A stretch of DNA of 61,558 nt, from assembly GCA_003224525.1 (NCBI GenBank), contig QHZB01000176.1, positions 1-61,558 of the forward strand, read 5' to 3'. A program made the position numbers and the translations under genes. Source of the DNA: Acidobacteriota bacterium. GTDB taxonomy: Bacteria > Acidobacteriota > Terriglobia > Acidiferrales > UBA7541. A model generated the notes under the pieces. It worked only from the letters and a program-made list of their open reading frames with translations. It was not told the origin of the DNA and did no database searches. This document shows positions 3,560-4,999 of this stretch, one piece after another (the first letter of the stretch is position 1; each line of letters starts with the position of its first letter).

Positions 3560-3890
3560 TTGCATCTAAAGGAGTTAGCCATGAGGCATGAGCCGTCACG
3601 AGGGTGTCCATGGCGGCGAGGGGGGGGCCCGCTTCCAGGACGCAGCGCACAGGTCAGCGTAGGCTTTTGCGGCGGCGGAGTCCCAAGGCAGAACGCTGAC
3701 GCCCAAGAGAAATTGATTGACGAGTTCGGCGAATTTTGTGGCTTGGGTTTTCACGGCGAGCCCGAAAGAGCAGTTCGGCTTCGGTGATCGAAGAAAAGCA
3801 GACCTGGACCATGGGAACGCGGCGCAAGTGCTCGCGAACCGATGGCGGATTCCCCCCGAGGGTGTAGCTCACGCCATTAGTATCGAGCAT
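3560..3890 (-). pseudogene. PIN-domain toxin (VapC-like) remnant
   Basis: VapC toxins are PIN-domain ribonucleases. Starting at an ATG at 3890, the minus strand reads MLDTNGVSYTLGG, with the first PIN aspartate, and then SSITEAELLF with the conserved acidic residue. A one-base shift near 3765 moves the reading to FGLAVKTQATKFAELVNQFL and SVLPWDSAAAKAYADLCAAS. A second shift, at a run of eight G (3620-3627), restores LAAMDTLVTAHA, with the third acidic residue. The last 20 or so residues of a normal VapC (the VTND region) are not clear. No partner antitoxin is recognisable upstream. This is a dead or mis-assembled toxin gene. Confidence 0.75.
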
Positions 3891-4018
3891 AAAACGGAGC
3901 GTGGCAGCCCTCCCCGGGGATTTCGAGCGCGTCCGGCACGTGACATTTACCATGGTGTATTACAAAGATTTTGAAAGCAAACGGCGGAGCGACCCATGCG
4001 CATGGGAAAGCACTAGGC

Positions 4019-4429
4019 CTAGCGCCGGAAGTTCTGGGGGAGGCGGAGGTTTTCGCTGAAGCTGAGGCGATTGACGCAGAACTGGAGGGAGGGGCAGTGG
4101 CAGCGGAGCAGGCCCTGGAGGAGGGATTTGAGTTTGAGGGAGCGGACGATGTTTTGTTCGACTTCGGCGAGCTTGCGGGCGGCGAGTTTTTTCCAGCGAG
4201 GGCCGACGGGGGTGTTGTCGCGGAGGCCGCTGAGGAAGAGCTTGATCTCAGCGAGGGTGAAGCCCATGTTGGTGGCGAAGCGGACGAGCAGGACGCGATG
4301 GAGGGCGTCGCTGGGATAGCGACGCTGACCGCCGATCCGCTGGGGCGCGACGAGGACGCCCATTTTTTCGTAGTAGCGGATGGCGGAGGCGTTGAGGCTG
4401 GCGCGGGCGGCGAGTTCACCGATTTTCAT
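4019..4429 (-). CDS. MerR-family transcriptional regulator with a C-terminal Cys motif
   Basis: MerR proteins are dimeric activators that bind promoters with over-long spacers and untwist them when a metal, redox signal or drug binds. The N-terminal winged HTH is clear (MKIGELAARASLNASAIRYY then GQRRYPSDALHRV), followed by the dimerisation helix. Near the end, C110, C112 and C118 form C-x-C-x5-C. This spacing matches three of the four Fe-S cysteines of SoxR, while C110-x7-C118 also matches the metal pair of CueR-type proteins. So the signal could be redox or metal. The gene is divergent from the Cys-rich exported protein at 4523. A MerR-type promoter lies between them and is its likely target. 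Confidence 0.9.
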   Translation of the reverse strand: MKIGELAARASLNASAIRYYEKMGVLVAPQRIGGQRRYPSDALHRVLLVRFATNMGFTLAEIKLFLSGLRDNTPVGPRWKKLAARKLAEVEQNIVRSLKLKSLLQGLLRCHCPSLQFCVNRLSFSENLRLPQNFRR

Positions 4430-4451
4430 GCTGGCGTTCCTGAAATACTCT

Positions 4452-4482
4452 TTGACTTAAAGCTGACTTTAACTTCTAGCAT
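4452..4482 (+). promoter_or_regulatory. MerR-type promoter/operator
   Basis: A -35 box TTGACT (4452-4457) and a -10 box TAGCAT (4477-4482) are separated by 19 bases, the long spacer typical of MerR-activated promoters. The spacer carries a perfect inverted repeat, TTAAAG-CTGA-CTTTAA (4457-4472). It points to the gene at 4523 and lies 22 bases upstream of the divergent MerR gene. The elements are seen directly; their use by this MerR protein is inferred. Confidence 0.7.
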
Positions 4483-4522
4483 CGCAGCATGGGACGTGGC
4501 AAATCCTATTTGGAGGAAAGTC

Positions 4523-4999
4523 ATGAATAGCAAGAAGGAACGGTTTGGAAAAGTGAGCAAGAGAAGGGCTGTGACGGCAGGCGCGGCGTTGGCGCTGCTG
4601 ATTGCGGGCGGCGAAGCGGCAGGGCTGGCAGCGCAAGGCTCAGCGATCGTCGTGGAGGGCGAGAGACAAGTGGCAACGACGCAGAGCAGGTTCTATTGCA
4701 ACATCAAGGCGCTGACGCCAGAGGAGCGAGCGCGCCATAAGCAATTGAGCGAGAAATTGAATGCATCGCGAAAGGAGATCGTGGAAACGGAGAAGGGCTA
4801 CGAATTTCAGTACAGCCCGGCGGACATATCGCTTGCCGAGTTGGCGGAGTGGGTCGGCGCGGAAAGCAAGTGCTGCCCGTTTTTCGATTTTCACATTGAC
4901 GTGGAACGCGCGGGCAAATTGCTGTGCTTGCGATTGACGGGGGAGGAAGGGATCAAGGCGTTTATCCGCGCGGAGTTCGGCGTCGAGAAAATGAGGTAA
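4523..4999 (+). CDS. Cys-rich protein with exported-type N-terminus, MerR-linked, function unknown
   Basis: This 158-residue protein starts at an ATG preceded by a strong GGAGG (4512-4516). Residues 12-37 look like an export signal with a twin arginine (SKRRAV followed by a hydrophobic, Ala-rich run), so Tat or Sec export is possible. The mature part has C59, a CC pair at 117-118 in ESKCCPFFDFHID, H124 and C135 in LLCLRLTG. This is a plausible metal- or thiol-active set. It begins right after a MerR-type promoter and is divergent from a Cys-containing MerR regulator, so a role in metal or oxidant response is likely. I recognise the sequence type but know no assigned function. Confidence 0.75.
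   Translation: MNSKKERFGKVSKRRAVTAGAALALLIAGGEAAGLAAQGSAIVVEGERQVATTQSRFYCNIKALTPEERARHKQLSEKLNASRKEIVETEKGYEFQYSPADISLAELAEWVGAESKCCPFFDFHIDVERAGKLLCLRLTGEEGIKAFIRAEFGVEKMR

Follow-up and report, generated by a model that had tools for sequence, protein, structure and literature searches.

What does a MerR-type regulator govern when the gene it faces encodes a small cysteine (Cys) protein that matched no Pfam or NCBIfam family? The question is raised by two divergent genes in contig QHZB01000176.1 of an Acidobacteriota soil bacterium (assembly GCA_003224525.1), a stretch of 61,558 nucleotides that was analysed as a whole and is hereafter called the window. The original prediction, made from the letters of this DNA, had taken the two genes for a compact, undescribed metal or redox response pair. 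The arrangement of a MerR gene facing a Cys protein gene was confirmed and is more than chance, and that interpretation is supported; the module probably serves the response to stress by a metal or metalloid. With a probability of roughly 0.6, the pair forms a self-contained MerR switch for stress by a thiol-reactive soft metal or metalloid. The evidence is at the level of sequence, namely the pairing, the conservation of operator and spacing, the conserved residues, the neighbours and the fusions; from it we infer DNA binding and activation by MerR, the ligand, and both the export and the role of the Cys protein.

Pairing of the two genes in the genus and beyond

The Cys gene was matched in 26 of 101 genomes (the window's own and its relatives), 20 of them among the 36 of the genus. 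MerR orthologs, sought at a threshold of E 1e-30, turned up in 15 genomes, each of which belongs to the genus and is one of the 20 with the Cys gene. Across the 36 genomes, both genes were found in 15, the MerR ortholog alone in 0, the Cys gene alone in 5 and neither in 16 (Fisher p 3.2e-6). The MerR gene was adjacent and divergent at 17 of the 20 loci of the genus, and at two of these 17 it is broken (L014 and L015; L numbers denote loci). The five genomes with the Cys gene alone comprise two with broken neighbouring MerR genes, one contig end (L022), one with remnants of both genes and one divergent copy of the Cys gene without MerR (L019). At L027 (G018), the remnants of both genes have decayed side by side. 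The Cys domain of L015 still reads and that of L014 has one TGA reported, the MerR gene being broken in each.

Homologs came from a single scan of named genomes (29 loci), from plasmids and from whole-genome samples. The Cys domain was present in 20 of 247 genomes sampled from the window's phylum. In the phyla sampled around metagenome-assembled genomes (MAGs) of Betaproteobacteria, Solirubrobacterales and Anaerolineae, it was found in 3 of 348, 19 of 246 and 25 of 201 genomes, respectively, the centre genome included in each case. Named members belong to Acidobacteriota, Pseudomonadota, Bacillota, Bacteroidota, Actinomycetota, Chloroflexota and Armatimonadota. The lone Betaproteobacteria locus from the named-genome scan lies on a contig of a MAG, for which mis-binning is possible.

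The prediction was to fall if the two genes were not neighbours in relatives. This was examined and the pair survived: besides the genus itself, divergent adjacency was seen in Acidobacteriota of other families and classes, on plasmids of Bacillota and Rhizobium, and in the genome samples centred on the Anaerolineae and Solirubrobacterales genomes. The proposed search yielded 117 non-identical domains, 46 of which face a MerR gene within 1.5 kb; fusion to MerR accounts for 11 and a same-direction MerR neighbour for 8, and 52 have none in reach, so that MerR is beside or fused to the domain in 65. MerR genes occur at 0.167 per kb up to 1.5 kb from the Cys domain, compared with 0.007 and 0.004 farther away (49 long genome loci). 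A quick tree of 94 domains was built from few columns and left 48 of 91 inner branches open. On the best tree, the labels 'MerR' and 'none' require 17 changes by parsimony, and the starred, well-supported branches force 4 per label. A recurrent association with MerR in the family is likely, and the tree resolves it only partly.

Table 1. Coordinates of the features discussed and the basis of each assignment.
Feature	Positions	Strand	Basis
MerR-family regulator gene	4019..4429	-	136 residues; Pfam and NCBIfam matches, SoxR best solved relative, conserved Cys columns
Candidate MerR-type promoter/operator	4452..4482	+	Read in the sequence; conserved in relatives
Likely ribosome-binding site (GGAGG) of the Cys gene	4512..4516	+	Sequence reading
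Small Cys protein gene	4523..4999	+	158 residues; ATG at 4523, stop at 4999; homologs found
Conserved Cys domain	4673..4999	+	Alignment A4; AlphaFold2 model of alignment A3
Two-helix CC proteins of other loci	L028:4735-4971, L030:4720-4971, L061:4288-4599, L109:4372-4671		Sub-threshold MerC/MerF/MerT matches

Operator and regulator

The promoter between the genes is directed toward the Cys gene and starts some 22 bp upstream of the first codon of the MerR gene. As predicted, a 19-bp spacer separates its -35 element (TTGACT, 4452-4457) from its -10 element (TAGCAT, 4477-4482), and a perfect dyad with 6-bp arms, TTAAAG-N4-CTTTAA, lies at 4457-4472; the arms reach 8 or 9 bp in some relatives. The window's promoter thus carries the mark of the MerR family, a dyad inside a -35/-10 spacer of 19-20 bp, the usual spacer length of promoters that MerR proteins activate (PMC9909328). 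Within the window, the core operator pattern has a single occurrence, with 0 mismatches, where shuffles at 3 mismatches average 0.02, and one exact copy exists across the 6.5-Mb genome. A second genomic site has 2 mismatches, but the reversed pattern used as a control likewise matched at 2 sites, so that no regulon is claimed.

To what extent this operator accompanies the pair was read from a scan (TTG[AC][CA]N, spacer 15-21, TANNNT, dyad score >=5) covering 42 of the 46 divergent gaps, L068, L130, L135 and L137 being excluded for length or overlap. A MerR-type operator was found in 30 of the 42, compared with 0.3 of 42 in shuffled gaps. Its spacer measured 19 bp in 26 cases, 20 bp in 3, 21 bp in 1 and 15-18 bp in 0. 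The window's own clade contributed 16 of these operators; the 14 from outside include those of the Bacillota plasmids L028-L030 and of the Anaerolineae-, Solirubrobacterales- and Betaproteobacteria-centred genome samples. The usual core was ACTTAAAG-N4-CTTTAAGT or a TCAAG/TGAAG variant.

The regulator has the N-terminal MerR helix-turn-helix and the dimer helix by which the family is defined, and PF13411 (MerR_1), PF00376 (MerR) and PF09278 (MerR-DNA-bind) all exceed their Pfam cut-offs. Its end reads C110-H-C112-PSLQF-C118, the predicted C-x-C-x5-C, and the 136 residues hold no other Cys. This motif is taken as a three-thiol sensor site, the ligand of which we infer. SoxR is both its best curated match in NCBIfam (TIGR01950) and its best relative among solved structures. 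The SoxR cluster Cys are C119, C122, C124 and C130 (PMC9909328); in the alignment, the regulator has Leu in place of C119 and keeps the other three, which share the C-x-C-x5-C spacing, and its Trp79 aligns with a Trp of the SoxR dimer helix. With three of four cluster Cys and 78.3 bits against a cut-off of 116.9, membership of SoxR was rejected. The genomic setting differs as well. SoxR targets soxS or efflux, whereas the window's regulator faces a small Cys protein.

Akin to CueR, ZntR and mercury MerR, the pair combines a long-spacer, dyad-bearing promoter with a Cys loop near the C-terminal end of the regulator. C110 and C118 are set apart as in CueR, whose Cys spacing is C-x7-C. However, the loop holds an extra Cys and the regulator scores far under all the equivalog cut-offs, among them 61.8 against 147.4 bits for CueR (TIGR02044) and 67.5 against 150.85 bits for mercury MerR (TIGR02051), so that both memberships were rejected. 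Of the mercury MerR residues C82, C117 and C126 (PMC9909328), C82 aligns with Val75 of the regulator. A PADLOC mad1 match covered the helix-turn-helix alone and was taken as generic.

These residues are shared by many of the 46 divergent partner MerRs: C-x-C-x5-C was found in 35, Trp79 is kept in 37 and, by alignment column, Cys occupies C110 in 38, C112 in 38 and C118 in 36. Other MerR types partner the domain in other lineages, for example the fused ones with CGPDCGC.

The Cys protein and its domain

The Cys protein consists of a signal that looks Sec-like in the window's clade, followed by a domain of about 100 residues, and carries the predicted CC pair (117/118) and two more Cys (59 and 135). 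In alignment A4 of 31 diverse members, C59, E114, C117, C118 and F120 are invariant, that is, a Cys followed by E-x2-C-C-x-F; C135 is not one of the five. Signals were called by a simple hydrophobicity rule of our own rather than by SignalP. A signal or membrane segment starts 25 of 106 unfused forms and 81 are without one; 17 of the 25 belong to the 20 rows of the window's clade. A twin Arg was found in 6 of these 17, the others having KK, KR, RK or no pair, so that the Tat signal suggested at the outset is unsupported.

The domain does appear to be undescribed, as had been supposed. No Pfam or NCBIfam model matched it, and a Pfam scan of the 31 members at E 0.01 gave a single weak match, DUF4439 in one member (E 0.0063). 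Solved chains gave no convincing sequence match (best E 0.023). The AlphaFold2 model of alignment A3 (mean predicted local distance difference test score 89) suggests an a-bb-a-bb-a arrangement; Foldseek returned nothing for it at E 0.001, and its top VIA match was AhrC (Z 6.8, root-mean-square deviation 3.1, 81 aligned), fold searches speaking only to the families they list. In the open-licence publications searched, no paper on the domain or on the MerR/Cys pair was recognised. A link to phages was rejected: there was no match among phage records, and 22 pattern matches in viral contigs included no relative.

Small size, Cys and an occurrence alongside genes for metal(loid) resistance are shared with the metallochaperones ArsD and MerP. 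ArsD bears a Cys trio. However, profile comparison (hhalign of A4) showed no homology of the domain to one ArsD (probability 0.95%), and there was no Pfam HMA-domain match. One MerB-like protein was likewise rejected as a homolog (hhalign probability 0.30%).

Metal(loid) neighbours and competing explanations

A specific metal partner accompanies 24 of the 117 domains within 3 kb or the available flank, which for many loci was 1.5 kb only, and YnfA accompanies 13 of the 117. In Peribacillus, MerA, MerR1 and a BASS-type permease annotated for arsenic resistance stand by a MerR gene that faces a two-helix CALCCALP protein and the domain. Cytobacillus has arsADCB-arsR, then a MerR gene facing the domain and a BASS-type permease. 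In Paenibacillus, YnfA and MerR face a two-helix protein, the domain and DoxX, and in Rhizobium a MerR-like gene faces the domain, thioredoxin, CcdA and YnfA. In Adhaeribacter, the domain is part of an ars operon, in which it follows ACR3 and precedes YnfA, with no adjacent MerR. L059 reads MerA-ArsR-partial domain-YnfA, and at L085 domain-YnfA is faced by MerR. The domain of Mycobacterium branderi is faced by a MerR-like gene with no metal gene annotated nearby.

Fusions were found as well. MerR-domain fusions occur in Rhodococcus, Streptomyces and Mycobacterium gallinarum; a BASS permease lies downstream in 5 of seven fused plasmid loci and YnfA is present in 2, and ArsC, ArsM, ArsO, CcdA or alkylmercury lyase genes lie near some of them. 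At L142 (1453-2331, minus strand), ArsC is fused to the Cys domain beside an ACR3 gene (weak domain match, E 6.5e-6). In L082 and L123, the Cys domain is fused to a two-helix CC membrane segment, the domain match of L082 being weak (E 1.2e-6). It is because of these ars/mer neighbours and fusions that we favour a soft metal or metalloid, which narrows the metal or redox response first proposed.

At rest, a MerR dimer would sit on the dyad in the over-long 19-bp spacer, holding the divergent promoter low and, judging by position, its own gene as well. Binding of a ligand by the C-x-C-x5-C loop would untwist the spacer and switch on the gene of the Cys protein. For a spacer of 19-20 bp, this mechanism is the one set out in a review (PMC9909328). 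The latter, presumably exported in the window's clade, would bind the same ligand through C59, C117 and C118 and might serve as scavenger or carrier. The likeliest ligands would be As(III)/Sb(III) or Hg(II).

It is unlikely, though still a live explanation, that the pair answers redox or electrophile stress instead, with MerR sensing oxidants or carbonyls in the manner of SoxR or NmlR/AdhR and the Cys protein acting as a thiol buffer or repair protein. It stays alive because of the SoxR likeness (best curated match, best solved relative, last three cluster Cys and dimer-helix Trp retained) and because CcdA and thioredoxin/redoxin genes adjoin some homologs. The half site CTTAAAG presumably resembles AdhR/NmlR sites. 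However, Leu at the C119 position and the score under the SoxR cut-off speak against a SoxR-type sensor, and the neighbours and fusions indicate arsenic and mercury.

Rather improbable is a role of the domain as a co-sensor that mainly presents or withholds ligand for MerR, resistance coming from other genes. The 11 fusions might act in this way, and of the seven fused plasmid loci five have a downstream BASS permease and two have YnfA. However, the operator drives the Cys gene, as expected of an effector, and the apparent export in the window's clade would prevent direct contact with a cytosolic MerR. A chance neighbourhood of an ordinary MerR and an unrelated exported protein, compatible with the commonness of MerR genes and with the housekeeping flanks in the window's clade, is contradicted by the co-occurrence profile of the genus, the operator scan and the recurrence of adjacency, operator and fusions across the family, and is very improbable.

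Several observations weigh against a soft metal(loid) switch. The pair of the window's clade mostly keeps a fixed place in the chromosome: LepA/XseA and/or Ndk/SucD flank 12 of the 17 loci L032-L048, and the remaining five include a contig of 4.4 kb. With 34 query proteins, no ars, mer, YnfA or permease genes were found near the pair in L032-L049. A specific metal partner was seen for only 24 of the 117 domains, a rough count without a formal background, and its query proteins were drawn from the plasmid loci themselves. No operator was seen in 12 of the 42 gaps, and 52 domains have no MerR in the 1.5 kb searched, some of them at contig ends. In L158-L163, which fell outside the 31-member alignment, ECAP replaces E-x2-C-C and the upstream Cys is gone, with 2 of 3 thiols lost. 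Finally, no solved structure or clear fold match indicates what the domain binds. The L158-L163 homologs adjoin a methyltransferase-like gene.

More tentatively, and as rather less likely than not, we propose that the E-x2-C-C-x-F domain with its upstream Cys may constitute an undescribed thiol carrier module for soft metal(loid)s in at least 7 phyla, and that partner MerRs with C-x-C-x5-C may be a separate SoxR-related sensor class. This class would take in MerR-type sensors for As(III)/Sb(III), of which no earlier example is known. Under this proposal, the module might occur unfused with a divergent MerR, as an exported or a cytosolic protein, or as a fusion with MerR, with arsenate reductase or with a MerT-like membrane anchor. 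Few bacterial traits have been studied as thoroughly as arsenic and mercury resistance, yet no Pfam or NCBIfam family matched a domain that is found repeatedly next to their parts or fused to them. In its minimal form, two genes in Acidobacteria with an operator conserved across phyla, the pair lends itself to direct tests of sensor and Cys domain, and a new biosensor for metal(loid)s is a possible use.

Some further features accompany the domain. YnfA-family genes recur by it in several phyla (L030, L031, L059, L085, L087, L106, L110, L111, L114 and L123); a link of YnfA with metal(loid) resistance is possible. A two-helix family with a CALCCALP-like first helix, in some cases with a Cys-rich tail, is found next to the domain; it resembles MerT/MerF-type proteins in the CC of its first helix, but its MerC/MerF/MerT matches are weak and sub-threshold. 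At L170 (1216-2352, plus strand), the Cys domain shares a single open frame with a following part that by eye looks like an NADPH-dependent flavin mononucleotide reductase. In the window itself, an open reading frame between xseA and MerR (3654-3953, minus strand) has a weak PIN-domain match below the cut-off (E 0.019) and may be a broken VapC-type remnant.
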